A stretch of DNA of 64,000 nt from Sacculina carcini (taxonomy: Eukaryota; Arthropoda; Thecostraca; Sacculinidae): the NCBI GenBank assembly GCA_916048095.2, contig OU696573.1:986501-1050500 (forward strand), in the 5' to 3' direction. The notes beneath the pieces are model-generated. The model made no database searches. It was given only the letters and a program-made list of their open reading frames with translations, and was not told where the DNA came from. Position 1 is the first letter of the stretch; each line of letters begins with the position of its first letter. Position numbers and translations under genes: made by a program. This document shows positions 1 through 61,852 of the stretch, piece after piece.

Positions 1-390
1 CCACTGAATGATGGCAGAATGCTGGTCGGAAACGAGCAGCTCCAACAAAAACTGCCACAAGGTGATGTTGCTGTCCATCCCGACTACATACACACGACAC
101 ACACACACACATACACACACACATTGCATTACATTGTAACACACTTGTATCTTAATATCTGGTTGATTTTTAGTTACTATATTACATATATAGATACACA
201 GAGATATAGACATAAATACACACACGTATAGATATTATAGATATTGCATGATAAGTTGTATATATAACCCACATATACACAATTCATACAAATGAATATA
301 TGAAATCCAGAGTGCAAATATAAATGAAACATGATGATATCGGGGCCAAATCTATATATTTTTCAAATGAACACACACACACACATGCAG

Positions 391-39235: not shown

Positions 39236-39382
39236 GCAGACAGCAATAACGTCGCTGGACGGATGTGGATGCTGTGACAAACAGCCTTCTCCACGTTGCT
39301 TCTGATCAAGTGACTGTTGATCGCTGTGGTCGACGGTTTGTGGGAGTGCGAGTGTTTTGTGAAGGGGAATCGGTGATTCGCC
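39236..39382 (+). other. PACSIN 5' UTR part of the first coding exon
   Basis: The acceptor TTCTTCTTTCAG ends at 39235. The following 147 bases are untranslated and contain an in-frame TGA at 39374, nine bases before the ATG. This fixes the start codon. Confidence 0.7.
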
Positions 39383-39599
39383 ATGTCGGTGGGCAGTGAA
39401 GAGAATCTTCTGACGTTGGACACTGGAGGCTCGTTCTGGGAGCCGGGCAACTACCGACGCTCAACCAAACGCATCGACGACGGTCATCGTTTGTGTGATG
39501 ACCTGGTGCGCATGGTCTCTGAGCGAGCCGAGATCGAGAAATCGTACGCCAAGAGCCTGAAAGCGTGGAGCAAAAAGTGGTTCGACACCATTGATAAAG
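39383..39599 (+). CDS. PACSIN: PACSIN coding exon 1
   Basis: Codes residues 1-72 and one base of codon 73. It is the start of the F-BAR domain, through [11 protein letters not shown]. The donor is AAAG|GTAGGC. Intron 1 is 3574 bases and holds a 24-bp minisatellite, a hAT copy, tRNA-like debris and a LINE tail. It ends in (TG)n-TTAG. Confidence 0.96.
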
Positions 39600-42500: not shown

Positions 42501-45500
42501 AGCTGTCGCGGGGGTTGATATGAATTGTTTTGTGAGCCACCGTGTGTCTGTTTACACGCTGCAACCACACAGATGTACGTGTCATGTTTGTGCCTGATGG
42601 TCATGTTTGTGTGTGTTTACATTTGCGATCTAGTAACTCCATTCCTCATAGAGAGAATGTTGGCTGGTGTGATCCTCTTGTTATTTAAACCACTGGAGAT
42701 TAGCCGCACACACCGATATTTGTTCTCATCGGCTTCATATCATATTCCCTGAGTATTGTCATTGTATTTATCATCGATTCCGATCAGACTGGTTATTTGC
42801 TTAGAAATCAAGGCAGGACTAAGGTATTATTTGGTTGCGTCGAAGTGTTTAATGATTGGTAGAGACACAGGCTAAACACAGCTTCTTTTTCCAGCGTAAT
42901 TATCACCAAATGTTTCATTGCTCAAGTCCTCACATTTTTTTTTGCTGGCGTATAATCTCGATAATGTCAAGTTTGGTCACTGAATTGTCTTCAGAAACAT
43001 ATTCACTGTGTATTTGATCCGCTTTTCACCGTCTTCCTCAGTGTTCGTCTGTTTTGTACCTTTTACGTTCGTTGTTGGCCAAAATTCCACTGATCAGATC
43101 TATCATGATCTCTCGATGACCTGTCAGCCACGTAGAGTACTCTGGCACGCGCCTGTGTGTGTGTGTGTGTTAGGACCGGAGTATGGAAGCACGGAGTCAG
43201 CGTGGAAATCGGCGCTGGTGGAGGCGGACCGGCGGTGTGAGCTGCACTTACAGGTGCGCGACAACCTGCTCAATGATGTGCAGAGCAAAGTCAAACAGTG
43301 GCAGAAGGACAACTACCACAGGGTGAGCCAACACACACACACACACGGGGCAGCCTCCACCAGACTGTGTCGTTCTGAATGGGACGATTGAACCTGAACG
43401 ACTCCCACGAGTGTTTTCCAATGAAATGGTGCCGTATCACGCACATATTTGTGGGTCGTGATTGGACTGTGTACTATGAGTGGGGATTATCCCACCTAGA
43501 AAGTCAACATTCATCTTTTGCAAAGGGAAAATTGCAACAGATCACGGGATTCCCAGTTGTCCGTGCCGATTTCTGTGAATTGTGCTGTCAGAGATCTGGT
43601 TTATGTTGTACCCTCCTGGTAATTTCCACTACCGTCGTGTTGGGATGATTTGCACTCACCATCCACTTCTTTTAGTTCACTAATCCTACCATAACCTGGA
43701 TTCACTTGGACAGTCTGCCAATGGTTTGACAAAACTACGAGTTATTACTAGTGGTCTCATATAACACTAATATCATCTCGTGACTGGGTGAATCATAATA
43801 GCGGTGTGGTTTAGTCGTCGTGCACCACTACCAAAATTCTTCACTCAACGTCGAGTTTCAATGACATTCAGTTGGCATTCAGTCGTGTGGGCTGATTTTT
43901 TCGACAACAGTGAGATATGTCATTGTGGATTTTTGTTCATATATCACGTGCTCATACACAGAACGTACCTTCACGGAGCTTGTGCGTAGGCGGCCATTAT
44001 TGACTCACTTCACCGTACACGTTTTTATCGGCACGTGTTATGAGATTTTCGCCGAATCAGTGAATTATTATCGCATTGTTTTATGAACACATCTGGTTTC
44101 TTCAAATAGCGACTGTTATCGAGTTCTATTTGCGTGTTCGTTGCGTTCATTCTTTGTGTCGTCACGATTAATAACTGGTCTTGGCGCTTCATTTCGTGCT
44201 GCCATTTTGTCTACTACATTCTTGACAGATGAAAGCTACGATTTTGTGTCAGGATTATGGTGAGTACTCTATAGTTCTTATCGTCGCGAATGACAATCTG
44301 TCTTACGACGAATGAAGATCGTGGTTGAAAAAGGGAAAGAAGCTTGGTGTATGTATGCATTGGAAACTGGTGACTTCGGGTCTTGAATGTTTCAACAACC
44401 GCACGCTTTTTTCTATGCTCATATAAATCCCCAAAGACTCCCTGCCTGGTTCATGTTGAGAACAGGGATAATACGCCTACGCTTCAGTCCCGTCTCTCTT
44501 TCTCATTCTTGTTAGGTTAGGCAAGGTTAGACTCTGTTAGTTAGGGAAGAGAAAGAGAGCCTGGACTGGAGCGTAGGCGTAATGGTCCGTAGACGTAATA
44601 TCCTCAGCTCTGTTCTTGTTGATACTATTGTTATTCGCACGCGTGTGTGTGTGTGTGCAATAGCACACACACACACACGCGTGCGTATTATCCTCTTTCC
44701 TTGCACTGAGTTTGGTAATTGGGCCTATGCTAATACGTCTGCTGCTGGTGTAGTCCACTTCACAGCTCTCGCCTGCAACTCCTGCTTGGTATGCATGCGG
44801 CGATACACACACCTGTTTGTGTGCGTGTGTGTGTGTGCACGAGATAACCAGCAGCGGGGCGGTCAAGGTCGCTGAAGGTGACCGAAATTACGGCCACGTG
44901 TGTCAAACAGGATCGACAACAAATTGGTGGAGAACATGTTCGTGTATTGTGCAGCCGTCTGATAATTGATGCCAGTCACACATGTTCTCCATCTCACTGA
45001 AATTCTAGCAAATCTTGCGGTATCTTGCTATTTGAACCGTGGTTCTCAACCTTTTTGTGAGATCGAGTACCACTTGGAGGTCCCGAGTACAGTCGCCGCC
45101 TGGTACCACCTGGTTCCAGAGAAACTCAGCTCGATCAGATATCAGTGTATTTACATAATTGTACAAGTACGAGAACACAGGGATCAACTGATAGAAACAT
45201 GTTGTGTCTGCTTCTTCTCCAGCAGCTGGTCAATGAGGCACTAGCCGTGCGAGTAGCACAGGTTGGGAACCACTGTATACTGGATCAACCGCTGCTTACG
45301 TCGTGTGTTCAACCACTTGAAATGCGTATATCCACCACTGCTTGTACTATTGGTCAATTCCTTGAAGTGAATACGTTTTTTTCTGGAAGGAAAGGCGAGT
45401 AAATGAAATGTTTCATGTGGGGATGAACCTGAGTTTCACCATTGAAAACTGGTGTTCATTACGTCAGGCTGGCTCATGCTTGTAGTTCAGTGTTTTCTTT

Positions 45501-48500
45501 AAATTACCAGTCTGTTAATTTTATCTGCGCTTTCTTATTATTCGCTCTTCCGTGTCATTTTCCTAGTGTTTGCTCAATCTCTCTCATCAAAGCTAGTTTT
45601 GACAGCCTATGCTGTATTTCTCTCTCATTCTTTTCCATTTTTGTGTCGTCGTCTGTGATCTATCTCCATCCTTGTGACGTATTTGTGATATTCTCACCTG
45701 ATGTCTGATTCTGTAGCATCGCAAACACACACACACACACATGCGCGCTTGTTCACCTGCTATGGGCGTGTCAGTTCGAATGTGTACCTGTGTGTCAGTT
45801 CAATGTGTACCTGTTTGTGTGACATTGAATGACTTGTTTAATCACACGTTTCCATGTGGAGCTGATACTAGCGCTCATCAACGTGTGTGTCTGTACATCG
45901 CCTACATACACACATGCATAGCGCACATACACATTTAACCTTGGCAATAACTGGCTGGATGAAGGTATCGGTACACCAGCTGTCTTAGCGTGTATTTGCT
46001 TCGCTTAATATCTCTGTTCTTTACTTGTGTGTGTGTGTTGTGTTGTGTTGTGTTGAAAAGCGCCATCCTGATAGACACACACGTGCGTGCATAAGCAGAT
46101 ATATGCATGCACGCGTGCCTAATCGACTGTTGTACGTTGTAAACACGTGTGTGTGTGTGTGTGTGTATGTGTACATACTCATACGCACATTTTTTGCATA
46201 CATTTACAACTACCTACATCTCTTACTCTCTCTTCCTCTTTGCCTGTCTTCGCGGTCATATTGACGGGTGTTCAACTGAGGCTGTTGCTGCAAAACGTTA
46301 CCTGTGCGTGTCTAACTTGTGATTTGTGATTTGTGACTTGTGATTGGTATAGTTGTACGAACATGCAAGGATGTGTGTGTGTGTGCATGTGTTTGTTAGT
46401 TATATTCTTGACAGAGGTGCATGGAGGTGTACAGGCACCGGATGTTTGTTGATTGAACATGCTTTGTGAGTGGAGTTGTTCTGTAATGAACATGTAATAC
46501 TGAGTGGTTGAACAAGTGTAGATGTGGGAACGTACAGCTTGAACGTGCATGCTCCTGCGGACCCCTCCGGCGATGCTGCAGTAAAAAGCAACGATCACTT
46601 CCTGTGGTGATGATTGCGAGTTGCATCATTCATGTGTGTGCGTGTGTGTTTTTTGTCCGTGGTGAGCTTCACAGGTACGAAGTAGTAATGTGAGTAGTAT
46701 GTGTTGAAAACTTGTGAAACCCGGTGTTGAAGTACTGGCCGTCTCTTGTGGATTGAAGTTTTATCATTTTTAAGATCCGTTGAAGCCAGTATTTAGACCT
46801 ATTGTTGTGGTAAAAGTTTGTCTCACGAATCTCCCTCGAAAAATATGTGTATTTTTCCGAAGATTTCTAGTCGGCAGTTCAGTGCGGCAGTTATGTGATT
46901 GTTTCTTGAGCATCTGTTTGGCTTTATGAGCCCTGTCATGGTGGAGCGGTCTAGTGTTTGTTTATTATCATGCAGTCACTCATGTTCCCTAAATTAGCAC
47001 ATGTATGTCCTTGTTATGTACATATGGCTGTCATTTCATCGCTGCTCCGAGTTCAAGTTTCTTGACTGTGTCGCTGCTCTTCTCATGCACCGGGGCTGTT
47101 CTCCAGATGTTCGTCCAAGAGCGTTGACGGTTGTGCTACTTGCTCACTGTTGGCTCAAGACAACGAGGATGCGTTTAGCGAAGTAGCGGAATTCTAGATG
47201 TGTTTCCTACATGTGAATCCTAGTAGAAATCATGTTAAAAATGATATGAAATGGGGGCAGAGAAGTTGTAGGGAATATAAGTATATAATTTATATAAGTT
47301 GGCTCATTGAGAAGTGTGGGGAATCAGAGAAAAAAAGATGTCGAACAACTGAGCTATAAGAATAATTTATATTTGACTTCAGACTTGTGATTTTATCAGA
47401 CTTTACATATAGTATGGTTGATTATGTGAGATGGTCGAGATGGCGTATGAGCTCGTACTGATTGAATCTACTGCCAGCATAGTGGGCAAACACATGAACA
47501 ATGAGAGTAGGATCTAGTCATCATTGTTCATCCTCTCCTTTACTCTCTCTCTCTCCTTCTATCTGATTGCCTGTTATCCCGCGCCGGTGATTTCTCCAAG
47601 CGAGTTCTTTCATCAGACGTCCTAGTCCTGACGTAGTTATCTGGAATATCCCGTGTGATGTGTTGTGTTGGACTCGCTTGTTGATTGCTTGGCTCCTGCT
47701 AACCGGTTGCAAATGACGTAATGACGTATGTTCATATAGTTGTGTGTTTGTGGGGGTGTCTGTGGTTGGTTTGCTTTCACGTAATGTTCTGCTGTTTTGC
47801 GTGGAAGTGCGTGATTAAGTCATCTCATCCTGGCGATCATCAAGAGGAAAACGAGTGACGGAATCATTTTTTCATACGGCTAGCATATATGAGCATTGAG
47901 TATTGTGTTTTGCTTCTTATTTGAAAGCCGCATTTACCGGCGTCGGTGGATGAGGCTATTAGTATTGTCAGCGGTGCTAAATTTCAACAACACCTGCCAA
48001 TTAGCGGTGCGTTGCGGTGTGACTGCGCGTGCGTAGCTGTTTGTCGCTTGAAGGCACCTGTGTGTGTGTGTGTGTGTGATTGTCGGACGATTAATAAGAC
48101 CAAGACTCAAGTGCGTTATCTTTTGGTAGCGGACTGTTAGCGTTGGCAACATCATCATCAATCATATGCTGTACTGTGCGACCGAACTGGACTTTTGGTC
48201 CGTTCCGCGTGCACCAAACACCAGCTTCAACCTGCCACACTGATTCTTGATGGCGGCTGGCACGTGTGATTGCTAGCGTGTGCTTGGTGCACAGGTTTTC
48301 CGACTGCTTGTTAAGTCTGGTATCACTGGTGTTATCTGTGCTTTGATGAGTCGCTCGGTGAAAAGACCGCATATACTTGGCATCTTCGGCTGGAATTCTA
48401 CATGGTTCGACCAGTATCAGTACAAATCGTGGGGCTAAACAATATGTTACAATAAGAAAACAATATGTTATGAACTTCCAGAAAGTTCATCGTATTTGTT

Positions 48501-49072
48501 GCCGAGTGGAGCAACGATTTTAAACAAACGACTTCCAAATGTGATGTCATTGTTAGGAGGCCCGTTTTTGGACGGTGATTCAACATCCGTCTTCATTCAT
48601 CATCTTTCTCTTCTTGCTGTGTGTCGTTCGCTGCTTGTTGATGTCTGTGTTCGAACGTCTGGCGCGTAACTGTTCGTGCGGCCCACGGAGAAGAGCATTT
48701 GCTTGTACGCGCTTGTCATCTTCCAAACCTCAAGTATTCGTGTGTGTGTGTGTGTGTGTTTGTGTTAAGCCGAGCGGAAAACGACAAAACACATACGGTG
48801 ATGGCTCTGTCGGAGGTCCTCCCGGCGACAAATCACCCGTCTCACTACTCTCTCTCTTTCTCTCCACCTCTCACCCGCTTCCAGGCTTCTCCTCACTTTC
48901 TTCTCCCGGCGCGCTGTTGTTGGTGTCTTCCGCCACCAGTTTGGGAACACATTCGATAGTGTGTGTGTGTGTGTGTGTGTGGGTGTGTGTTTGTGTTTCA
49001 CTGATTTCATGGCCGATGGCCCATGGTTTGTGTTGAATCATCCACGACATTTGTGCTATTTGTGGCACAATT

Positions 49073-49139
<67 letters not shown>

Positions 49140-50623
49140 TCACTCAGACACTCCTGTCGTTTCCCGTTATTCGGCAGTGTCAAAGCTTCTTGTATTCCGG
49201 TCGTTATTGGCATAATCAGTGGTTTTTAGGATGCGATTATTTCTCGTGTTATCGCTGCAGTGTTGGTTTTCGTTCACGCCCATGCATTTCCATGCACACA
49301 CTTATGTCGTAATGTTTGTGCTTCTAGAAAGAACGCTTGCTGAGTGTTTGGATGTTTAACTAGAAAAGTCCAAATGACTACGAAAATCAAGTCGCGTATT
49401 GTCTATTACCGTGCACATGAGCTCAAAATCTGGACTTCAAGTTCCAGCTGGTCTGGAATGAAGGTTTCATCGTCTTATCACTAACCACTTGATCAATTTG
49501 TCTTCCATAACCGTTTCTTAGCATGACCTTTCTCAGTTCTCACGGTCTTCCAAACAAGATTTTGCGACTTCATACTGGTTCAGGACCCAAATATTGTTAA
49601 TCCCTGGTGGTCAATGGATCGTCAACTCCTCGATGGGTTTGTCGCTGTCTGTCTGTTCGGATATCATGATGTGGTTCCTTGTAGGACTAGAGTAACCTCG
49701 TTTGATGTTACTTCGATGAGCAAGTTGGCAGGATCCCCCAAGTGACTGACACATTTACTGCCTTCATCTTGCTATTCTGATGTGCTCAACCGTTGTTGTT
49801 GTTGTCCTATCGCATCGTTGTGTGGTCCATTTGCCAGCATTTCGATGTGGCACGTGCATTGCTAGCCAGCCAGCTCCGTGCCGCTCGTACACTACGCTAG
49901 TTGACCTCTCACCCGTTCCACGTGGCCGCTGAATTATTCATGACCTCCGGGACCACTGCGTGCGGATGCCGTGTTTTTGATTCACCTGCCACCGACTGAC
50001 TGGGTCGCTCGGGCGTTTGTCTCTCTGTGTGTGTGTGTGTGTGTGTGTGCAAGTGAATTTGGGTTGATTGTTCGCTTCACTAGCACCGTTATTTCTTGTT
50101 GAGTCAGTGATGCCGGCGTGCATGCCCGGTTTTCGCGTATTTAATTCCTGGTGCATCGGTCCGTGATTGCCAAGTATATGGGTGATGTGTGTGTGTGTGT
50201 ACGAAACATTCACGCCAATACAATGCAATACTACACCAAAACTACGATGTACTGATAAATACAGCGGTTAATTGATCGATAGATAGGTAGATGGATGGAT
50301 GCGGAGAAAGATATTGCGTGTGTTCAAATATTTATCCTTGTCTCAATTTTATATCACTGTTTACTTGAAAATGCTTGAAGCGCAGCGAGATATTACCAAG
50401 GTAGAAAACGTGGAAGAAGTTGTGTTGTCTGTAGGACTAGTGGATGATTACTACATACACACACGAGCAGTAATAAGCTGACTGATAATGGAACACGAGA
50501 GCACGTGTTCTTCTCTCGACATTCTCCTCATTCTCTGGCTTCATCAACACTCCTCTCTAGCTGGCGGCCATTGACCGCATCGGCAGTTCCCACGCGCTCC
50601 TGTGGCACATACACTTGCTGTCC

Positions 50624-50669
<46 letters not shown>

Positions 50670-53600
50670 GAACGTTTCTGACACCTGTACATCCTGTTTG
50701 CTGGTGATGCGTGAGTGGAGCATTGCTCACCTTGTTCACCGCTTCCTTCACCCATTATTGCCATCAACAACAACAACAACATGTATTTGATATAGCGCAC
50801 CTTCGAGGACGAAAGCGCGAGCAGTAATAAAAGTATAGACACATGGAGACCGGCATGGAGACAAAAACAAGCGGCACAAATCGACAGAAATTAGATGGGT
50901 GCTTGCACTCATCGCTTGGGGTGCTGATTCTGTGAGAAATTTCCCGAATTTCAGTGTTTCCGGTGAATATTGGCAGGATCCTGAACAATTTCCTTTCACG
51001 AGCGAATTTCAGCGTAAAAAGGAGTGACTCAATTGCTTGGAAAATGTAGTCTTTCAGCAAACTTCACTCTCTATTCACTAATGTGCACTAATGTACACAC
51101 CACAGCGCCTAGCAAACCGCTCTCGTACACGTATACATTAATAAAATCTCAACACACACACACATGTTCTTTTTCATATAGGTAACTTTTAGACTTCTTA
51201 TTCTGATGTTGTTGCATTCAGTATTTATCCGGAAGACAGTTTTCATTCTTTCTGTAAATGTCCCTGTCATTGTTAATTGACAGTTGATGTCGTTCGCCCA
51301 ATGTTCGTATTAATTTTATTACCTTCATTTGTCTTTGTTGCACTCTCTCTCTCTCTCTCACACACAATGACTGTGACGGACGGCTTGATCTGGTCCAAAC
51401 GCTGATATTTCTGCTAATGATCTCAGCTGTGTGTGTGTGTGTGTGTGTGTGTTCCGCTTCTCTGCACACGTGTGTGTGTGTGTGTGGGCGCTTGTCATTC
51501 TACTGTGCTATCCACCTACGGTAATTTGTATGCTTGCGCGTGTGTGCGTGTGTGTGAACACATAGTGGAAATTTCCTAGCGCGTTGGGGACCATCAACAT
51601 ACGGGCAGCTGGTATAACGGTATAAAACACACACACACACATACACAGGCAGGCAGGCATGTGCGTATTTCAGACATGCACAGAGGTGAGGAAAACTTGT
51701 CAGCGTGCGAGTGTGGTTGTGGCGTGCCTTGATTTTATGCTGGACATTCTCTAGCAAACACACACACAGGGAGGGGAACCGTTGCACTGCTTGCATGACC
51801 TGGTCAGTGGGGGCAGGGGGGTGGTGCAGACTGGCACAAACCAGTAGCATATCTCAAATGGATGCAGCGGGATTGTGGATTGGTGAACGATCAATCCACA
51901 ATCCACTCAGATACGCGGCCACCGCTGCTGCTGCCGCGTGTTTCAAATACCGAGCTCAAACTATGCACAGAGTCAGAGTTCGTGCGTGGGAGGCTGGTTT
52001 CGCTATGGTCACCATGACAACGGTAGGTGGGCCCACATGTCAACACACACACATGAGGGAAGAGAGAGCGAGGTGCCGACTCACTGGAAAAGACCATAGT
52101 TCGTTTTTCTCGCCGTTTTGTTGATTCAACATTGTTTTGTTTTTATCTGTTTCTTGTGTGTTTTTCACCGTCGCTCGCTAATCTGTCGCCTCTGAGTGTT
52201 TGACGCCATATGGTCCAGGAACATGTGGTGTGATTGTTGAATTCGGTCGTTTGCTCAAGATGTGAGCGTCATTATGTCTAATTCCAGTAATTACCTAGAT
52301 TTTCATTTGAACTTTGTGTTCTTGAAGAGAATGTTCCACTTTATGCGTGAACTTTTTATGCAAAAAATCAAGTATCAATTTGTCTGGGCGAATTATCTTC
52401 ATACCTGTGTTTTTATCAATCCGAATTCTTTGATTTTAGTTTCCAGTGATTTTCTGACATTTAACGTAGTGGAACAACTGATTTTATCGGATTTATCAGC
52501 GCTATTGTGCGTAAAATGAGGAGTTGGCTCACTGACCTAGACTATTGAATTTCTACTTGACGTTCAAGCTTATGTCTCGATGGTGGATTTTGGTTTGATT
52601 TCTTATTTCGATTGATCAGATTCAAGGTCAGATGTTAGTTGGCAATATGTTGCTCGTCTCCGTGTAGTTCAGCCAATATGCCAGATGTTTGATGGATTTT
52701 TCAGTCTCGTGATTTTTTGGTCCGTGCTCTTTCGATTCGCCATTTCACATATCGAACAGTTTTGTTGTGTTGGAATTTATCACGTGCGTTTGTGTGTGTG
52801 TTTTGCAGTATATGATGCAATTTAAGGAGAAACGGGATATTGACGACGCGTTCAAGAAGGCCCAAAAACCGTGGATTAAGCTGCTCACCAAGGTACCCTC
52901 TCTGTTCACGTGCTTAAGCACTCTCTCCATACACCATGTCTATACGACCTGCGTCACACAAATAGGGTGTGTTCGTTTCAACTTCAGAAGTCCTTCAGAA
53001 GTATTTCTAAGCGTTCGACTCTATATGCACACACACACACACACCATAAGCGCGTGCATACGTTCACTCTAGCTGAATTACCATTTTCTATGCACGCGCG
53101 GGACCTTCGATCTGTCTTCTCTGAATGTGTCTAATTATGCGGCCGTTTTGTGCGCGTGCGTGTGTCTGTTAACCGTGCCATTTGTCGTGATAGTAGCTGC
53201 TGATATGGCCCGAGGCCATCGGTGACCTTTTTGTGCGAGCGTCATCTGGTCATCGCTCACGTACGTCACGTGACCATGAGGTGTTGACCTTGCTGGGTCA
53301 ATACACTCGGTCATATTTGCTGCTACCGGGCGAATTATTATTTCGCGAATTATTCTTCTAATTTGTATAAATGTTTGTCTCAGCGTGATAAAATGATTGG
53401 TTCACCCCGCTGCGGGCTCAACTACAATGTTATTCATCGGTATCAAGCAGAGTTGGTCGAAACTTTTCCTGTGCTGGGTTTGAACCGCCAGTCGCATATT
53501 TCGCTATGTCTACCTGTGAGTTCAACTGTCGTAATTTCGGTCTCTTATAAATGCGAATCTTTTTCAGTGATCATGGTATTTGCCGTATTTGGGAAATTTA

Positions 53601-56600
53601 GAAAGCCCAGAAAGTATATTTATTGTTTAGAAAGCCTTATAATCGTAGACATTTGAAGATCTTAGTTTGTTCACTGGGTAACCATGGCAACAGAGGTCTT
53701 GTAACCATGAAAATCACGTTTCTATGGCACAAACTATGAGTGATGAAAACTTGTGAAATCCTGGATTCACCCAGCTTCACTCCAACATCTCTGGGTGGGT
53801 GTTTCCAATAACTGTACGTTATCCTTTCTATCAAGCAGGAATTTGTTGTGCTGTGAACAGACCCACTTGCACAGGAAGTGTAGGGTGATACGGCAGGATG
53901 TACCATGAATAATGTGTATGTGTGTGTGTGTGTGTAAAGGTGAATAAGGCCAAACATGACTACCACTCTGCATGCAAACATCAACGAACTGTGTCCGTGC
54001 AGGAGAGAAACGCCACCGGAGATGATTCCCTGTCCTCGGAAGCGGTGAGTGTTGATGTATGATCGTTGGACTCCGTGGTGTAGTGGTAGCACACCCGTCT
54101 CACAAGCAGGAGGTCCGTGGCTCGAAACCAGCCAGAGGAGAATTTCCTTGGGTGAATTCTATAATCCAACAGTCCCTGTCTACCCAGCAGTAAATGATGG
54201 TACCAGATATCAGTCATGTGTTATGTCATGCATTCTGGGAGGTGGCCCTGTCTAATACGTCTTTCGTCCTTGTGGCGCCATAGCGTGGAGAGGGTCGGTT
54301 CCGCGGTGGCAGCGAGCTGCACGGGACACACCTGTGTTCATAAGCTTCGGCTTTTTTCCGTGTAGCAGCTGCCACTTGAGGCAGTTAACTTTTAATCGTC
54401 TATTCTAGTGCTGATGTCGTTCGTTGTGTCTTCCACTATGTTCCATGTTGCCTCCGTTCCTATTTCATAATATCCACTTCTTTTAACGTTTGAAGCTTTT
54501 GTTAATGTTGAACGATCATGCCATATAGAAGCATGTCTTCAATTGTGTAATGATTATTTAAACAATGTTTTCAATTCAATTGAATCAATGTGTACAGGTT
54601 TTGTGTTGTGCCTAGTTGAAAGTGTGTACGCATATATCTACCTGTTGTCTACCTGTCTGGTGTATATAGTCAGTGGCGGTGAGATCAGTGCGGTTATCAA
54701 TAACTCGCTCAGTTGAGTGGTGCCACAGTGGCTCGTGCGGTGCTGTTACGAAAGTGGACTGACAGCTAACCGGTCGAGATTTTCGTTGTTGTCTCACACG
54801 ACTACTAGGCAGCCAGTCAGTCAGCCACGCCCTCGGCAACATGTTGTTTCTAATCGGCCACCACCCGTGCTGCCGTCTCCCCACCTCTGTCTTGTCTTGC
54901 TCCCGCCCCTCTCTCTTTCTCCGGTCTGCCTCTGTGTTCGTTTTTGTGTGTTGTAATGTGAGGCGGGTGTGCGTGCGTGTATGGGCTGCTCGAAGTCACT
55001 GGTGTATTTCCCGCTGGTCACTTTTTCCTATCATTGCCTCTACTCTTTCGTCTTTATCTCCCTCACTCTTGCTCTGGTCGTGTATGTCTGATTGCGTTCA
55101 TCTTAACGAATCCTGGATAGAGGAGGTGTTGGTAGTTTTGCGCGTGTCAGTTTGAGTGGTGACATCCTCACCCTCACTTCTTGTAGAATACTGGTTCTTG
55201 ACCTTTTTCCACTGTGTTCGCACTATTTTCAAATGAGAAGTCAGTTCTCGCACCTTACAACTCCTGTTAGAAAAAAGACTGCTTTTCAGGGAAGTATATG
55301 AAGCATAGGCAAAAACATATTTTTTCTTCAAATTTCTCATGAATCCTTGCACCTCTTAAAACTAGTCTCACACCCCCGGTTAAGACCCCTTGTTGTAGAG
55401 CATTGTTTCTCAACCTTTTTTTTGCCATGACCGCCTTCAACACAATGCGAGTCCTTGTGATCCCCAGAAACATCCCTTGGCCCTGCTAGAAGTCCTTGTG
55501 GCCCCATATACACACATGGATCTTCTCGTTGCTAATTATCCACACTTCTACGACAACTTGTTTCAGCATATATTTTTCGTGGCTCGTGAGAAACATGGTA
55601 GCCTCCCATTTTTACAATTTGGTCCTATGGTTCTTCAAGGAAATCCCGTGACCCCCGGTTAAGAATCATTGTAGAGGAACCTCCATCCTGTTAGCATAGA
55701 GTTCGATGTTCCAGGATTATACCAGCTACATATTGTCACTACATATCGACTGGTTTAATGGATTTCTCGGTGTTGTTGTGCAAAATTCAGAAGTTGGCTC
55801 ATTAAGAAATGGGGAATCAGAGAAAACAGGTTACTGACCAATGATCTTTCTATAACCAGATCATGTGAGCCTTCTGGACCAATGTTTCTCAACGTGCGTA
55901 TATGACCCTCTTGGGGGCCATGAAATTCTTTTGAGAGGACTTAGGACCAAATTTAAAACATAGGGGCCACCAAATTTTTGTCAGGGGCCACGAAAAATTC
56001 ATGTTGAAAATGTGTATTCCATTAATGTCATCGATGTTGTACATTTCAATCTTGTGATCCGCCGATGTCTGTGTGTGCTCACTCCACTTGTACGCAGGGT
56101 CACGGTGTTGTTTTGATGGTCAGTGGAAATATTCACCGACGTACAAGAGCTCTGGATAATTTGAGACGCGACTATCCATGTGTATATGGGGCCACAAGGA
56201 CTTCTAGGAGGACCACTGACTGTATCTGTGGAGCCACAAGAACTCGCATCGTGTTGAAGGGGGTCATGAGAAGGGCCGGTTGTTCTAGACATTGTACACA
56301 TCAGCCTAAGAACGCTTCATGTGTGTGTGGTTGTGTATGTGAGGAGGTGGATGCGTGTGTGTTGGCGGTTGTATATCTGTGTACGTGCATGAGTTTGTGT
56401 GCCTGCGTTTTTCTGTCCAGTGCACGTGAGATCTACCCTGTAATTATCTGGCGTGTGTGCATGTATGTGCATGTGTGTGTGTGTGCGTGTGTTTATATGC
56501 ACATGATGGCGAAAGTGGTGTTTTTGCTGTACTGGTGGAGCATCTCGTTGCTTCTCACGTGCATTTCTCTGATGATTTTATCTGTCGATTGATTGCATTT

Positions 56601-57779
56601 TCTCACGATGTAATTAATTGAATACCAATGTTTATTTCTTGTTCAGGAATTTTTGTGTGCATGCATCATGGTGTAATAATATAATACTGGAATTAGGCTA
56701 ATTATTTCGCGAAATATTCACACGAATACGAGCGTGCAGCATGGTTAGAATTGACCAACAGTGTGGCTTTATGCTAAAACATTGTGTTCAAACGTTCTGT
56801 CGTGTTTTTCAACAAATTTACTACCGTAGTGTTATTACTGTACACTAGTGGTTCTTTTTTAGTGTTCGCAACATTTCCAATTCAGCAGTCATTTCCCGCA
56901 TCCCCGACGTAATAACAAACATTTTGTATTCATTATCCATTCGTATAACTTTAAGTTACTTCAAGCTGCTTCATTTCTTTTCCAGAAAAAATATAAAACA
57001 TAGGTAAAACACATCTATTTTTCTATTTTTCACAGGAATCCTCGTATTCCTTTAGGAACCTGACTCGCACCTTCTAGGGGTGCGGTCACCCACGTTTAAG
57101 AGCGCGTGCTGTACCCCGGTCACATCCAGCAGGGGATGGGGAAATCATGCTGGCTCGGATTTGTATTTGTGCTCCATTTGAAGCCATATGCAGTCTTGCA
57201 GACTCCTAATGTGTGCTCTGTGGTGCTTCACATGCTGTCTGTCTGTGAACCGTTCCCTGTCGAACATCTGAGTTTGTGCCATTGATTTGCGACAGTCTAC
57301 TAGTGCATGTGCTTGGTGTTGACTGGCTTCTTTGGGTGTGGCATGTATTGTGGATGTCCGGTTGCTCTGTGTGTTCTAGTTCTGTGTGTGCGGCTGTAAT
57401 CCTCTTAAACAACATGATCCTCGCAAATCCTCTGCAATTCGCCCGTGTCACCAACATATTTGTACATGCCCCTGTTCATCTCGACAACCTGGACAGCTTC
57501 CTTCCTCTTTTGCTTATTGCTTGATTACTTATTCGCTTGTGTCCAGATGAAGAAGTTGAACGATCGCGTTCTGAAGGCGAAGGACGAGGTGTCGCGCACC
57601 AAGGGTCGCTACGAAGCTGCTCTGAGGGACCTGGGCGACTACAATGGCCAGTATGTCGAGGACATGCGGTCCGTATTCGAGCGATGTCAGCAAATGGAGA
57701 TGTGTCGACTGGAATTCGTGCGACAGTCACTACTGGCACTGCAGAAATGTCTCAACATCTCTGCCGATGACACGTCAGT

Positions 57780-57845
<66 letters not shown>

Positions 57846-60355
57846 TGCGACATTATTGCTTCATAGGCTGTTTTATTGTGTTCATTGAACGATTAAAGAG
57901 GTGGTGTGTCATCACATGTATTGTCCTCTATTTCTTCCTCACCAAAGTGAGACGAATTAGCCATTCACATCACTCATAGCTTCTGCAATAATCAGCGTTA
58001 AAAGATACATTTGGTTGTTGCCTATGTCACATTAACTGGAAGCATTCATGGTCGATTTATGCTCATGTATTCCATTCAAGCTTATTTTATTGTCTGATTA
58101 AACAAGTTTGAACATGTTTGAACATGTTTGCGCGTGCAGGTTGTCTCAAATATACTCCGAGTTTGATGAGACTATTATGGCGGCCGACAAGGATAATGAC
58201 CTGATGTGGTGGAGCAACAACCACGGTGTCAACATGCCCATGAACTGGCCGTCCTTTGAGGTCAGGTCATGTCATGTCACTGTGTCTGTAATGTGAAACG
58301 TTCAATATCAGTATATGTATATTTACGGTTTGTGTATTTGATATTGTTGGTTGTGTGCAAATATGCACGAGCGTGTTAGATTGACAGCTATATCGCACTA
58401 TTTTCCTCTTCGTAAACAATTATACCCGTTTTTTTTGGTATTTCATCCTGTATACTGCGTATCATGCTGGTTTATCTTGTAATTTCCGCTGCATATCTCG
58501 CAACGTTTACAGTTGATTTTGTGGTATTTTTGAAGTTCACGAGGATATGAGCTGAAGAATCATGCGATGTAATCATTATTTTTAGTATTTATCAAGGACA
58601 CAATGGGTGTCTGGGGCTTATATTATACATCAGAAATGCCTAGACGGAATATAAGCTCAACAAAAATGCATGAACACATAACATCAATGTTTTATTTTGA
58701 TCATTGCTTCTAGCGATCCTACCTGGAGAATTCCACAGACTGCGTACCGCGGCTAGAGACGAAAATGAATGTTGTAGAACTGAGAATAGTTTAGATCTGA
58801 TAACTGAATCACACAACTGCGCATGTTTGTGTCACTGTTTGAGTCCAATAATATCGTGCATTACGCTCAAAGGATACTTTGTGCTGCTGCACGAATGATA
58901 TCAGTCACGTACGCTTGATTTCACGTGACAAGCGTTCTTTTGTGCCTCCTTTCATTGTGCGGGTTGATTTCACATAGCATTGTACGGGTTTAATTCAGAA
59001 TCCAAACGATATAGTGTGAATTGTGAATAACAAACTATAAATATTCATATCTTTATCCAATTCAGCCCGAATTGATGGTAATTTTTTTGCGCTGCACTGA
59101 TTGCAAATTTTCTAAATGTCATTGAGTTCATTTGTGTCTGTTTACCCTATCTTCTCCTAAACCGATTTTGATGAAACTTGGTCCCTAGGGATAAAATGGA
59201 TGCAAGAAGGTAATAGGCTAGGCTTTGTTGACCTCTTATTGCTAGGTGTATCTTCTGGTCCCAAATTATTTCATCATTTTGCTTCTTCTTTACCCTCTTA
59301 TGTAATCTGTCCATAATGTGTAGTTGGTTTAGGATATCAAGGCCGAATTGGGGGTATGCAGCTTTGGATCTGGTTTGTGGCCAGACAAAGCTGCACGTCT
59401 ACTTAATTAATATTTATTTCTTCCATAATGTAACGTAAATGTAAGCATTCTACACGCGGGTTTATGTAGAAACTGAGAGTATTGAAGCAGTTTTAGGTGG
59501 TCGGTTTATATGCAATGCAGGATTATACTGCAGTCTTTATGGTTCTCAATCTTTAGCCTGACATTTTCCATTGTTTTTTCTTTATTTCTTGTCATATATT
59601 CACGTGATATATGTTCACGTGCACTCTTACAATGACCGCCTCTTGTACTCAAATTACACTAGTTTCTATGTCCGGTTGATTTTGCAGTTTTTAATCAAAC
59701 CTAAAACGTCTCACCCGTTCCTTTTGCCTGTCATTAAATCATGCTTGTATGTTTGTGTGTGCGTGTGTGTGTGTGTGTTCGATATTACACGATGGTAGCC
59801 GGGCTAATAGAAGCCCGGTGTGTCCGTTTCAACACGACGCATACACTAGCGGTCATTGCCCCCGATTTGCACGCGCTTCTCTCGTGCTAATACATCGAAC
59901 TGCACCTGTGTTGTCCTGCGGAACCTGTGGCTTTGTTCCGCTCCCCAAATTATCGTCAATTGTTTTACTTTTAGTTTGAATAAATGTGACAATTCACGAG
60001 AGGGGCGTCGAGCAAATATAAATTAGGATAAAATGAACAAATTCTTGGCCGAACTGAGAAAGAAAGCTTATTTATCTGTTCATTCGGAAATGCTATAAGA
60101 CGTTGTTGGTCATGTCTGTATCATGTCTTGTTTGTTCCACTTCATATCAATACTTTTTGTGCTATTCACAAAGATTCAGTCAACTTTTCAAGTCAGTTTT
60201 GTTGTTGTGTTTGTGCGTGTTGTAGGACTACAGCGAGGAATTCAGGGATATATCGTCGGGACGCAACAAGAAGGACGTGATTGGTGATGGCACCATCACT
60301 CTCATTCATCAACGAACTGTGTGCGATGATCTACCGGTAATCACGCACTGACACG

Positions 60356-60398
<43 letters not shown>

Positions 60399-61356
60399 AT
60401 AGACTTTCAGACCAGTTAAATCAGTTTCTATCTATATAACAAGATAGAAATACAAACGGGGTAATAACAAATCTATTACCTATCTTAGTATCTATTTATT
60501 ACCTATATAATCTATTACCTACCTATAGTAACCTATCTTCCTTGAAATTCCCAGTATTTCACACACTATCCAGTCTTTCTTTAAATGCTCCTACGCTGTT
60601 AGCTCCTACAATATTCTCCCCAGTAACTGATTCCAGACATCAACACACACCTGTATATGGTAAACTATACTTCCTAACATAGTGTACGTCTGTGCGTGTG
60701 TATGTGTGTATGTCAGGATTATAACACGGTGACGCGTCTGACCTCGACTACCACCACCAGTAACCTCCCTCACAACCAACAACAACAACATCATCAGCAA
60801 CGTAGCAGATCTCAGAGTCGAGACTCAGCCTGCTCACCTCCACGACTCAACAACAAACACCTCAAAAACATCACCTCAACACACATCAACAACAACAAGA
60901 GTAACAGCGGCGATAACAATAACATGAACCACTCGTCGCGACTTGGGCTCGGCTCCACTGGTTCCACAAACGTCCGCCAGATGTCGGGAGATTCGGCCAT
61001 TCCCAGCATTTCCAACAGGTCACATTTCACAACACGTGCGTTTGTATGTGTGTGTGTTTGTATGTGTTTGCATGTTTGTGTATGTGTGCTTGTGTGTGTG
61101 TAAGTGTTTGTGTGTGTGTTTGTGTAAGTGTTTGTGTGTTTGTATATGTGTGTGTGTGTGTGTGTGTGTTTGTTTGTGCGTGTGTTTGTATGTGTGTGAG
61201 TGTGTTTGTGTGTGTGTATGTAAGTGTTTGTGTGTATGTGTGCGTGTTTGTGTATATGTATGTGTATGTGTGTGTTTGTGCCTGTGTTTCTCTTCTAAGG
61301 TCTTCTATCCTTTTCGCATAATCAAGAGATTCACTAAAAGTGGTCAAGGAAAAGCA

Positions 61357-61399
<43 letters not shown>

Positions 61400-61532
61400 A
61401 TATCATTGAAAAAGCCAGCCCCCAAAAAACGTTTATGTTTTGGTGCATGTTTGTATGTGTGTGTGTGCTTGTATATTTGCGCATATATATAAGTTGATGT
61501 CGGTTTAATTTTGAGCGCATGTTCATATGTGT

Positions 61533-61564
<32 letters not shown>

Positions 61565-61852
61565 CCTGGCAGCGATGACACGGCCACCGACGATTGCTGG
61601 GACGATGAGGACCACCAGCGCCACTTAGCGGCTGAGAATTCGTCAAGTTGCGGCGGTGACAGTATAGATGGCAGCAGTGGCGTGGCGGTGAGAGCATTAT
61701 ATGATTACACGGCGGCCGAAGACGACGAACTAACATTCGTGGCCGGTCAGAGTTTGTATAAACTGGGCGAGCCAGACGACCAGGGCTGGTGCCAGGGACG
61801 TCTCAATGGCCGTCTGGGTCTCTACCCGGCCAACTATGTTCAACCCATCTAG
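39383..61852 (+). CDS. PACSIN: PACSIN/syndapin: F-BAR and SH3 membrane-bending adaptor
   Basis: Nine coding exons (39383-39599, 43174-43322, 52809-52892, 53940-54044, 57547-57773, 58140-58260, 60226-60336, 60717-61018, 61573-61852) give 531 residues, with all phases matching. Residues about 15-300 form the F-BAR domain, which dimerises and curves plasma-membrane and endosomal membrane. Family landmarks are [40 protein letters not shown] and [10 protein letters not shown]. Residues about 302-475 are a variable linker: Q/N/H-rich (NQQQQHHQQ), serine-rich, then acidic CWDDEDHQ. Residues 477-529 are an SH3 domain with ALYDY, DDELTF, GWCQGR and GLYPANYV intact, which in this family binds proline-rich dynamin and N-WASP. 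No NPF motif is visible, so EHD-protein binding is not predicted. The start is fixed by an upstream in-frame stop. Confidence 0.96.
39792..39945 (+). repeat. 24-bp minisatellite in PACSIN intron 1
   Basis: About six units of TTCCTTCACTATCACGAGG plus a variable 5-base spacer. The unit length is a multiple of three, and several frames on both strands stay open (PSLSRGLI on +, LVIVKES on -). It lies about 190 bases after exon 1 and is probably not translated. Confidence 0.9.
40100..40334 (-). mobile_element. hAT-type miniature element, left end lost
   Basis: It ends GGTTGAGAAATACTG, the reverse complement of a CAGTATTTCTCAACC terminus. It is collinear with 56088-56270 (ATATTCACCGACGTA, then GGGGCCACAAGGACTTCTAG). 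It lies in PACSIN intron 1. Confidence 0.6.
40360..40740 (-). mobile_element. Possible tRNA-like SINE fragments
   Basis: On the minus strand, GGCGGTTCGAAATC (near 40375) and GAGTTCAAACCCC (near 40675) resemble RNA polymerase III B-boxes, with A-box-like TGGCTTAGGTG and TGGTAAGCAC at suitable distances. No complete element is visible. Confidence 0.25.
41091..41450 (+). mobile_element. LINE 3' end: reverse transcriptase C-terminal 119 codons
   Basis: An open frame contains [39 protein letters not shown] and [18 protein letters not shown] before TAA. This is the conserved end of non-LTR retrotransposon polymerases (thumb-side helix, G-x-LWN motif, terminal F-K-x-x-L helix). Catalytic motifs are absent because the copy is 5'-truncated. 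It is the longest intact LINE coding remnant here, in sense orientation within PACSIN intron 1. Upstream frame breaks show that it is dead. Confidence 0.8.
43174..43322 (+). CDS. PACSIN: PACSIN coding exon 2
   Basis: Completes codon 73 and codes residues 74-122 ([20 protein letters not shown] to QWQKDNYHR). The acceptor is (TG)n-TTAG. The donor AGG|GTGAGC is followed within a few bases by (CA)n. Intron 2 (9486 bases) holds a fold-back element, a hAT element, long CA and TG arrays and two X-box-like or repeat items. Confidence 0.95.
44463..44605. mobile_element. Small fold-back element, copy 2
   Basis: ATACGCCTACGCTTCAGTCC on the left is complementary to GGACTGGAGCGTAGGCGTAA on the right. The loop contains TTAGGTTAGGCAAGG. 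It is the same family as 27045-27165. Confidence 0.75.
45038..45275. mobile_element. hAT-type miniature element
   Basis: The left end CGTGGTTCTCAACCTTTTTG is complementary to the right end CAGGTTGGGAACCACTG. It is 238 bases and non-coding. No convincing 8-bp duplication was seen. It lies in PACSIN intron 2. Confidence 0.65.
47296..47345 (+). repeat. Dispersed 'GGCTCATTAAGA' repeat, copy 2
   Basis: AAGTTGGCTCATTGAGAAGT and GGGGAATCAGAGAAAAAAAG match copies 1 and 3. Confidence 0.5.
49077..49135 (+). repeat. (CA)29 microsatellite
   Basis: Uninterrupted CA array inside PACSIN intron 2, about 100 bases after a (TG)n at 48960-48980. The pair could form an internal intron hairpin. Confidence 0.95.
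50629..50666 (+). repeat. (TG)19 microsatellite
   Basis: Uninterrupted TG array in PACSIN intron 2. Confidence 0.95.
52008..52021. promoter_or_regulatory. RFX X-box-like site in PACSIN intron 2
   Basis: GTCACCATGACAAC fits GTNRCC-AT-RRCAAC half-site spacing with one weaker position. Regulatory use is unproven. Confidence 0.25.
52809..52892 (+). CDS. PACSIN: PACSIN coding exon 3
   Basis: Residues 123-150, [20 protein letters not shown] then PWIKLLTK, in phase 0 at both ends. It covers the wedge-loop segment of the F-BAR domain. Compared with the vertebrate pattern QxMGGFKE it has YMMQFKE, one residue shorter. The acceptor is TTTGTGTGTGTGTTTTGCAG. Confidence 0.95.
53678..53691. promoter_or_regulatory. 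RFX X-box-like site in PACSIN intron 3
   Basis: GTAACCATGGCAAC is a near-perfect X-box palindrome and resembles the intergenic site at 37431. Confidence 0.35.
53940..54044 (+). CDS. PACSIN: PACSIN coding exon 4
   Basis: Residues 151-185, [20 protein letters not shown] then [15 protein letters not shown]. It aligns with the AxxAHHAACKEEK helix of known PACSINs. The acceptor is unusual, (TG)n-TAAAG. The downstream GTCCGTGCAG at 54002 could act as an alternative acceptor in frame, but would delete the conserved helix. Confidence 0.92.
54069..54390 (+). mobile_element. tRNA(Val)-derived SINE, near full length
   Basis: GACTCCGTGGTGTAGTGGTA and GGCTCGAAACC give A- and B-boxes, with CAC at the anticodon position. 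The body is collinear with the copy at 36954. It is inserted 25 bases after the donor of PACSIN exon 4, in sense orientation. Confidence 0.85.
55189..55392. mobile_element. hAT-type miniature element A (tandem pair)
   Basis: Ends TACTGGTTCTTGACC and GGTTAAGACCCCTTG (imperfect inverted repeats). It is flanked by TTGTAGAA (55181-55188) and TTGTAGAG (55393-55400), a 7 of 8 target duplication. The interior resembles 56846-57108 (AACATAGGTAAAACA against GCATAGGCAAAAACA). Confidence 0.75.
55401..55668. mobile_element. hAT-type miniature element B (tandem pair)
   Basis: It starts CATTGTTTCTCAACC and ends GGTTAAGAATCA, flanked by TTGTAGAG on both sides (55393-55400 and 55669-55676). The left duplication is shared with element A. 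It is the same subfamily as 34213-34670. Confidence 0.75.
55790..55838 (+). repeat. Dispersed 'GGCTCATTAAGA' repeat, copy 3
   Basis: AGTTGGCTCATTAAGAAATG and GGGAATCAGAGAAAACAGG match copies 1 and 2. Confidence 0.5.
55880..56282. mobile_element. hAT-type miniature element C
   Basis: It begins CAATGTTTCTCAACG and ends GAAGGGCCGGTTG, flanked by TTCTGGAC (55872-55879) and TTCTAGAC (56283-56290), 7 of 8 identical. Its interior is shared with 40100-40334. Confidence 0.75.
56846..57108. mobile_element. hAT-type miniature element D
   Basis: The ends TAGTGGTTCTTTTTTAG and CGTTTAAGAGCGCGTG are imperfect inverted repeats. The flanks CTGTACAC (56838-56845) and CTGTACCC (57109-57116) are 7 of 8 identical. 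It is a relative of element A. Confidence 0.7.
57547..57773 (+). CDS. PACSIN: PACSIN coding exon 5
   Basis: Residues 186-260 and two bases of 261: [60 protein letters not shown] and onward to NISADD. This is the long central F-BAR helix. The donor AC|GTCAGTCACATACACAC runs straight into (CA)n; the preceding splice sites are conventional. Confidence 0.95.
57785..57843 (+). repeat. (CA)29 array at the 5' end of PACSIN intron 5
   Basis: Starts 12 bases after the donor and occupies about a sixth of the 366-base intron. The intron's other end is rich in TGTTTG/GCGTG rather than pure TG. Confidence 0.95.
58140..58260 (+). CDS. PACSIN: PACSIN coding exon 6
   Basis: Completes codon 261 and codes 262-301: [40 protein letters not shown]. 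This is the C-terminal F-BAR part with the family's NHGxxMxMNWPxFE signature. The acceptor is GTTTGCGCGTGCAG and the donor GAG|GTCAGG. Intron 6 (1965 bases) holds nothing recognised except an AACCGATTTTGATGAAACTT stretch near 59160 that has the look of an old repeat. Confidence 0.95.
60226..60336 (+). CDS. PACSIN: PACSIN coding exon 7
   Basis: Residues 302-338, [20 protein letters not shown] then [17 protein letters not shown], in phase 0 at both ends. It aligns with the EEWSxDLNR...KKxTDGVTLT segment after the F-BAR core. The acceptor is TTGTGCGTGTTGTAG. The donor CCG|GTAATC is followed by CA repeats from 60357. Confidence 0.92.
60357..60395 (+). repeat. (CA)n array at the 5' end of PACSIN intron 7
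   Basis: Begins about 20 bases after the donor. The intron ends TGTGCGTGTGTATGTGTG before ATGTCAG, so both ends of this 380-base intron carry complementary repeats. Confidence 0.95.
60559..60690 (-). mobile_element. LINE 3' end: frameshifted reverse transcriptase tail
   Basis: Minus-strand frames give [11 protein letters not shown] and, after one frameshift, [16 protein letters not shown] and stop, the VVxVWNxLP...SVxxFKxRLD ending of many LINE polymerases. It is inserted antisense inside the small intron 7. Confidence 0.7.
60717..61018 (+). CDS. PACSIN: PACSIN coding exon 8 (low-complexity linker)
   Basis: Residues 339-438 and two bases of 439. The linker opens [18 protein letters not shown], continues with Q/H, R/S and N/K-rich runs ([25 protein letters not shown]) and ends [11 protein letters not shown]. 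There is no NPF motif. It is disordered by composition. Donor ACAG|GTCACA. Confidence 0.9.
61036..61570 (+). repeat. TG-rich intron 8 of PACSIN
   Basis: Most of this 554-base intron is (TG)n with TTTG, TATG and AAG variants, including (TG)19 at about 61361-61398. A TG array runs up to CCTGGCAG at the acceptor. Confidence 0.9.
61573..61852 (+). CDS. PACSIN: PACSIN coding exon 9 (acidic motif and SH3)
   Basis: Completes codon 439 and codes 440-531 plus TAG. It has an acidic [10 protein letters not shown] stretch, a Ser/Gly spacer, then the whole SH3 domain from [19 protein letters not shown] through [10 protein letters not shown] to [12 protein letters not shown]. The protein ends two residues after the SH3 fold, as in other PACSINs. 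Confidence 0.97.

Follow-up and report, generated by a model that had tools for sequence, protein, structure and literature searches.

TG repeats ahead of acceptors and CA repeats near donors are not linked in a sample of Sacculina carcini introns

The window analyzed here is a 64,000-nucleotide stretch of the genome of Sacculina carcini (contig OU696573.1), corresponding to C6:986501-1050500 of the searched assembly (264.4 Mb, 43 contigs). It contains a PACSIN/syndapin gene on the forward strand with TG repeats ahead of several acceptors and CA repeats near several donors. The same repeats were analyzed in a sample of myosin genes. The TG acceptors are real, recur in several genes of the sample, and are not specific to PACSIN. 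A class of introns with paired CA and TG ends, as proposed by a first-pass annotation of the window, is not supported in the sample.

Nine PACSIN exons are separated by eight introns, all with GT..AG borders. The eight exons from 43174 to 61852 give a single open frame on joining. Over residues 1-230, the product matches Drosophila syndapin (3i2w, E 1.3e-86) in a gapless alignment. Among the matches listed, Drosophila syndapin scores 293.7 bits and mammalian PACSIN chains at most 228.5 bits. The C-terminal end is an SH3 domain. This alignment fixes the borders of introns 2 to 6, and those of introns 7 and 8 are based on the reading frame and the SH3 domain. The features are given below by window position and strand.

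39377..39599, + strand: first coding exon of PACSIN/syndapin, start of the FCH domain (Pfam FCH, E 6.3e-14); frame open from 39377, ATG at 39383
from 39600, + strand: intron 1 donor GTAGGC
43154..43170, + strand: TG run ahead of the intron 1 acceptor (TAG at 43173)
43174..43322, + strand: PACSIN exon 2 (open frame, syndapin alignment)
43331..43346, + strand: CA run from +9 of intron 2 (donor GTGAGC)
52791..52801, + strand: TG run ahead of the intron 2 acceptor (..TTTTGCAG at 52808)
52809..52892, + strand: PACSIN exon 3 (open frame, syndapin alignment)
53919..53935, + strand: TG run ahead of the intron 3 acceptor (TAAAG at 53939)
53940..54044, + strand: PACSIN exon 4 (open frame, syndapin alignment)
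57547..57773, + strand: PACSIN exon 5, acceptor without TG run (open frame, syndapin alignment)
57785..57843, + strand: CA run from +12 of intron 5 (donor GTCAGT); the other end of the intron is without TG run
58140..58260, + strand: PACSIN exon 6 (open frame, syndapin alignment)
60226..60336, + strand: PACSIN exon 7 (open frame)
60357..60395, + strand: CA run from +21 of intron 7 (donor GTAATC), with predicted pairing to the acceptor end
60522..60680, - strand: antisense retroelement fragment within intron 7, from a family with the 3' end AGGTGAGTAC(AC)n (blastn, 88.7% over 159 nucleotides, E 2.6e-52)
60691..60713, + strand: interrupted TG tract ahead of the intron 7 acceptor (GTCAG at 60716), longest pure run 7 nucleotides
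60717..61018, + strand: PACSIN exon 8 (open frame)
61538..61564, + strand: TG run ahead of the intron 8 acceptor (..CCTGGCAG at 61572)
61573..61852, + strand: PACSIN exon 9, SH3 domain and stop (open frame, SH3 match)
35154..35170, + strand: TG run ahead of a cytochrome b561 acceptor (GGCAG at 35177); exon at about 35.2 kb
97..123, - strand: TG runs, in the sense of a minus-strand gene, ahead of the acceptor of an ETS-domain exon from about 83 (Pfam Ets, E 2.6e-4, below cut-off)

A codon-usage scan of the window was too noisy for annotating its left half. On the + strand, positions 120-33000 contain 11384 A against 7238 T and 137 CA runs against 61 TG runs, as expected if this region is a long minus-strand intron preceding the ETS exon.

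An independent sample was drawn from a search for the myosin head family, which gave 82 exon matches. Thirty-eight of these, in five loci picked for compactness, were used. Judged by eye against homology and frame, they provide 38 acceptors and, once nine ambiguous donors are dropped, 29 donors. Pooled with PACSIN, the sample comprises 46 acceptors and 37 donors. Both ends are available for 34 introns; 30 are strict, and the other four may span unseen exons. Three of the 34 are flanked by duplicated exons and may be spurious. The splice sites were picked on sequence that had already been seen, a possible source of bias. Repeats were scored as the longest pure alternating stretch in the 60 nucleotides (nt) next to the splice site. 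The interior control is one random 60-nt window per intron, from the same introns; this matched test covers 32 introns, the two shorter than 300 nt being excluded. None of the counts includes the acceptors of cytochrome b561, of the ETS exon, or of an exon termed L039 described below.

Duplicated myosin exons occur at profile positions of about 238-290 (C23; L026/L027) and 378-436 (C23 and C36; L031/L032), and resemble mutually exclusive alternative exons. A 200-kb piece of contig C1 was dropped as an intron sample because a retroelement-like unit arrayed in tandem, together with other repeats, makes up most of it. The array, at about 3.075-3.176 Mb (L012-L022), is long, with a unit of about 3.76 kb and a retroelement-like open frame of about 1000 amino acids (aa). 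Its copies are alike at the ends of the open frames printed.

The pure TG runs in the last 60 nt of PACSIN introns 1 to 8 measure 17, 11, 17, 0, 0, 0, 7 (interrupted), and 27 nt. The first-pass annotation had placed TG repeats ahead of acceptors 1, 2, 3, 7, and 8 and of the cytochrome b561 acceptor, and all are present, the last being 17 nt long. The ETS-domain acceptor, on the minus strand at the left window edge, went unmentioned there and has TG runs of 11 and 15 nt.

The pooled sample displays a clear strand preference at each end. Among runs of at least 8 nt, TG is found near 20 of 46 acceptors and CA near one, while donors have CA in 6/37 and TG in 3/37. At a length of at least 12 nt, the counts are 15 TG and one CA at acceptors, and four CA and no TG at donors (Fisher P 0.001). 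In the myosins alone, runs of at least 8 nt comprise 16 TG and one CA at 38 acceptors, and three CA and two TG at 29 donors (P 0.024); with at least 12 nt, there are 12 TG and one CA at acceptors, and one CA and no TG at donors (P 0.14).

The TG runs at acceptors also exceed the interior rate of the same introns. In the matched test, 15 of the 32 acceptors carry a run of at least 8 nt, where 3.2 would be expected (P 2e-4). Among strict introns of at least 300 nt, the excess is seen both in PACSIN (4/8 against 1.12 expected, P 0.001) and in the myosins (8/20 against 1.63, P 0.0002). The combined share of TG and GT dinucleotides in the 30 strict introns is 0.152 at donors, 0.199 in the interior, and 0.379 at acceptors. 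The rise at acceptors (P 7e-5) is accompanied by a deficit at donors relative to the interior (P 0.01). Over all runs, TG lies later than CA within introns (P 0.0014). This difference is lost when the terminal 60 nt at each end are removed (P 0.21; myosins 0.045), which places the polarity mainly at the intron ends. The frequency of TG acceptors gives the impression of being unusual.

TG repeats come and go at homologous intron positions of four myosin paralogs. At the intron before profile position 153, two myosin genes have a TG run (20 and 21 nt) and two have none. This turnover fits a tract that is interchangeable with an ordinary U-rich tract.

The acceptor tract is of a U/G type, not a U/C type. 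Positions -25 to -4 of the 46 acceptors consist of 45% T, 33% G, 11% C, and 11% A. Acceptors without a TG run still have 43% T and 25% G. C makes up 5.7% of these positions in TG acceptors and 15.4% in the others, and T 48% and 43%, respectively. Pyrimidine tracts are poor, as the first-pass annotation stated for PACSIN, but the property extends beyond PACSIN: the longest pyrimidine run at -40 to -4 is 5 nt or less in 19/20 TG acceptors and in 23/26 non-TG acceptors. Short pyrimidine runs being about as common without TG, poor tracts appear to be general and no mark of TG acceptors. In addition, C directly precedes the AG in 11 of the 20 TG acceptors versus 23 of the 26 non-TG acceptors (P 0.017). 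Two of the 46 acceptors, including that of PACSIN intron 3, end in AAG, and both are preceded by TG runs. It is as if the UG tract compensated for a weaker site.

CA repeats near the donors of PACSIN introns 2, 5, and 7 had likewise been annotated and are found from +9 (16 nt), +12 (59 nt), and +21 (39 nt), respectively. In the matched interior test, CA runs occur at 5/32 donors against 0.92 expected (P 0.0016). The excess of runs is confined to PACSIN, with 3/8 donors against 0.21 expected (P 0.0002) in a gene that was selected for its CA donors. The myosin donors show no excess of CA runs (1/20 against 0.57 expected, P 0.47; strict introns of at least 300 nt). Thus the repeats exceed the interior rate in both gene groups for TG at acceptors, but in PACSIN only for CA runs at donors. 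The CA plus AC dinucleotide share in the 30 introns is 0.214 at donors, 0.107 in the interior, and 0.088 at acceptors, and its excess at donors over the interior holds for all introns (P 5e-4) and for the myosins only (P 0.023). CA at donors is weaker than TG at acceptors and driven by PACSIN, and the myosins show it in softer scores only.

Genome-wide counts of donor patterns are of limited use here. (CA)6 after GTAAGT (202 on the forward strand) is not commoner than (CA)6 before GTAAGT (232). AGGTRAGT is followed by CA 212 times and by TG 81 times, forward. Nineteen of the first 20 distinct places with AGGTRAGT and CA are copies, two of them diverged, of the 3' end of one retroelement. The sequence there is AGGTGAGTAC, or GTAAGT in one copy; it is often tandemly repeated and leads into (AC)n. 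Since 19/20 places are retroelement tails, counts of GTRAGT with CA mislead as a test of donors. A blastn partner among the 20 is found at 1e-5 for 18 places, and for L038 under gentler settings. The sole place outside the retroelement, L039, resembles a coding exon and carries a CA donor. The octamer AAGGTAAG, a putative donor, has 14 distinct places with CA and nine with TG (P 0.01 against the interior CA share of 46/131). Read backwards, it has more such neighbors, 28 and 26 versus 5 and 6 (columns taken as unique starts), and backward controls are inflated elsewhere as well, for example 585 among the GTAAGT/(CA)6 counts. Neither the window nor the C1 sample nor the myosin loci contain AAGGTAAG. 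Its CA and TG counts carry little weight as donor evidence.

The retroelement family is one we take to be LINE-like from its C-terminal reading. Its copies (L033-L038 and L040-L052) have the tail at about position 300 in sense, with CA microsatellites beside perfect donor sequences. AGGTGAGTAC matches the consensus 5' splice site.

The first-pass annotation suggested that the CA and TG ends could be partners in a helix that joins donor and acceptor. No link between the two ends is detected in the sample, and their independence is the very outcome that it named as contradicting the idea. For runs of at least 8 nt, a TG acceptor is present in 1/5 introns with a CA donor and in 16/29 others (34 introns, Fisher one-sided P 0.98). 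Co-occurrence is also absent at a length of at least 7 nt (2/5 versus 17/29) and at least 12 nt (0/3 versus 12/31). One of the 34 introns has both runs at 8 nt or more; PACSIN intron 2 and, with its interrupted TG tract, intron 7 carry both repeats. The scores of the two ends are uncorrelated (Spearman -0.08, P 0.68, n = 30).

The predicted duplexes lead to the same result. The ends of introns 2 and 7, described as complementary in the first-pass annotation, form duplexes with predicted energies of -44.1 and -39.0 kcal/mol, but swapped ends do as well in general. Own-end duplexes average -24.3 versus -22.7 for swapped ends at a window of 70 nt (P 0.16); P is 0.39 at 40 nt and 0.28 at 100 nt, and 0.26 to 0.71 for swaps within a gene. 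By partition-function folding, intron 7 is predicted to bridge its ends with 27.8 expected pairs. Three of four folded C19 myosin introns have 28 to 39 expected bridging pairs. Intron 5, which has the longest CA tract and lacks a TG run, has 6.1, so that of the short PACSIN introns with CA donors, 7 is predicted to be bridged and 5 is not. In the 9.5-kb intron 2, 13 further TG runs of at least 11 nt could pair with the donor tract besides that of the acceptor. Of 110 chimeras made of a donor half and the acceptor half of another intron, 37% have at least 25 bridging pairs, and their mean is 19.0 pairs compared with 14.9 for real introns. Because chimeras bridge as often as real introns, end complementarity is generic and cannot on its own tell which donor belongs with which acceptor. 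The proposed clamp is probably a side effect of the sequence preference of each end. With only five CA donors the power is low, and pairing may occur within introns 2 and 7 individually.

The explanation favored here, to which we assign a probability of roughly 0.55, is that UG tracts, free of AG and half uridine, serve in place of pyrimidine tracts, that CA is tolerated near donors, and that bridging is incidental. Dinucleotide microsatellites are abundant in the sampled introns, and splicing would filter them by position and strand, which would be the cause of the enrichments. Near acceptors, the UG orientation alone would be retained or favored. UG contains no AG and would therefore be able to fill the AG-free zone from the branch point to the acceptor. 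Being half uridine, it may act as a weak, guanine-tolerant stand-in for the pyrimidine tract. UG is scarce near donors, probably since GU repeats provide cryptic donors, and CA would be tolerated or mildly favored there. The complementarity of intron ends, including the predicted bridge of intron 7, would result from two independent preferences and not from matched pairing. The tract may be read by U2AF2 or by a UG-binding protein. Two copies of the U2AF large subunit score above the curated cut-off and cover 61-510 and 66-510 of 510 profile positions, so the factor is not missing. They form a divergent pair of single open frames of 424-430 aa at C26:1032223-1033476 (-) and 1035393-1036658 (+).

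Several points weigh against this explanation. First, CA tracts of 39 and 59 nt at PACSIN donors are hard to call mere tolerance. Second, pyrimidine tracts are about equally poor without TG, and UG need not replace anything. Third, the own-pair advantage of the myosin duplexes is near a trend at 70 nt (P 0.06; 0.24 at 40 nt and 0.32 at 100 nt). Fourth, at least 25 bridging pairs are reached by 4/11 real short introns, PACSIN intron 7 among them, and by 4.1% of 220 length-matched interior segments (binomial P 7e-4), at a cut picked after the data were seen; a rank test over all bridging values is not significant for the same comparison (P 0.11). Finally, the sample consists of one F-BAR gene and five myosin loci, in which splice sites were judged by eye on the basis of homology and AG/GT alone.

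It is conceivable, if rather unlikely, that the ends are instead read by proteins, with UG bound by factors of the TDP-43 or CELF type and CA by factors of the hnRNP L type, each end being an independent splicing element. The independence of the two intron ends fits this alternative. The TDP-43 N-terminal domain is matched above cut-off at three places in the genome, C29:895365-895583, C26:5886003-5886227, and C26:5886773-5886991, the two on C26 forming a divergent pair about 550 bases apart. Also in its favor, TDP-43 binds GU repeats with an affinity among the highest measured, according to PMC12697283. However, the title of a reference in PMC12276007 indicates that TDP-43 on the TG repeats of CFTR intron 8 leads to exon skipping, not inclusion. 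The gain and loss of TG between paralogous introns is also unlike a conserved regulatory element.

CFTR intron 8 resembles the present acceptors in having its TG tract directly upstream of the acceptor. The two differ in that TDP-43 binding is said to cause exon skipping there, whereas here TG precedes 16/38 acceptors of myosin motor-domain exons. A pUG fold takes up 12 repeats, and TG runs of at least 24 nt are present at 6/46 acceptors here. The UG enrichment here is restricted to acceptors, as a TG run of at least 12 nt within 60 nt is found at 0/37 donors.

The paired class of the first-pass annotation, in which a helix between a CA donor and a UG acceptor replaces the pyrimidine tract as reported for teleosts, appears improbable. 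The duplexes of introns 2 and 7, the predicted bridging of intron 7 and three C19 myosin introns, and the four short introns above 25 pairs speak for it. The missing co-occurrence at three run lengths, the lack of correlation and of an own-pair advantage, the equal performance of chimeras, the absence of a TG end in intron 5, and the surplus of TG runs in intron 2 speak against it. Paired AC/GT introns in teleosts were reportedly defined as a class by the co-occurrence of both ends in one intron (Lin et al. 2016, Genome Res 26:12-23). The introns studied here share with them CA near donors, TG near acceptors, poor pyrimidine tracts, and some predicted bridging of short introns. They differ from that class in that no link between the ends is seen in 34 introns.

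A further variant, which seems decidedly improbable, is a general polarity of introns, with 5' ends leaning to CA and 3' ends to UG, such that practically every donor half could pair with practically every acceptor half. Non-specific pairing would fold short introns end to end, help to define them, and make a pyrimidine tract less necessary. Under this variant, the duplicated genes for the U2AF large subunit and TDP-43 would be adaptations to UG-rich acceptors.

Very improbable is a mutational strand asymmetry, in which transcription leaves an excess of TG and T on the sense strand that intron ends merely share. Sense-strand TG runs of at least 8 nt do outnumber CA runs in the PACSIN region (42:17), in sampled intron interiors (85:46), and, read as a minus-strand intron, in the left region 120-33000 (137 versus 61 runs), and T likewise exceeds A on the sense strand. 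This asymmetry predicts a TG rate at acceptors equal to that of the interior, but acceptors lie about fivefold above the interior of the same introns. It also predicts no CA excess at donors, which lean the opposite way. As the whole cause, a sense-strand mutational bias is contradicted by the matched interior test.

That the splice-site tracts are (AC)n tails of the retroelement ending in AGGTGAGTAC, a ready-made donor, can practically be dismissed: 19/20 of the GTRAGT and CA places read are such tails, a TG tract of the C21 myosin locus directly adjoins an antisense tail, and an antisense fragment lies within PACSIN intron 7, but the PACSIN CA donors come after conserved coding exons and not element sequence, and blastn of the 19 copies against the whole window gives one fragment, so that the tails are an unlikely source of the PACSIN tracts.

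UG tracts standing in for pyrimidine tracts remain the favored explanation of the acceptors. No report of UG-rich acceptors as a genome-wide feature of an invertebrate was found in the literature searched, which does not prove that none exists; one paper concerns a CELF protein of C. elegans and mutually exclusive exons (PMC3585155). Before bridging is claimed for introns with both AC and GT repeats, in fish too, their co-presence needs testing against what each end prefers independently. If the acceptor result is true genome-wide, a non-vertebrate animal reads many 3' splice sites via UG-rich rather than pyrimidine-rich tracts. It would then provide a natural test of the pyrimidine need of U2AF and of TDP-43-type proteins promoting constitutive splicing.

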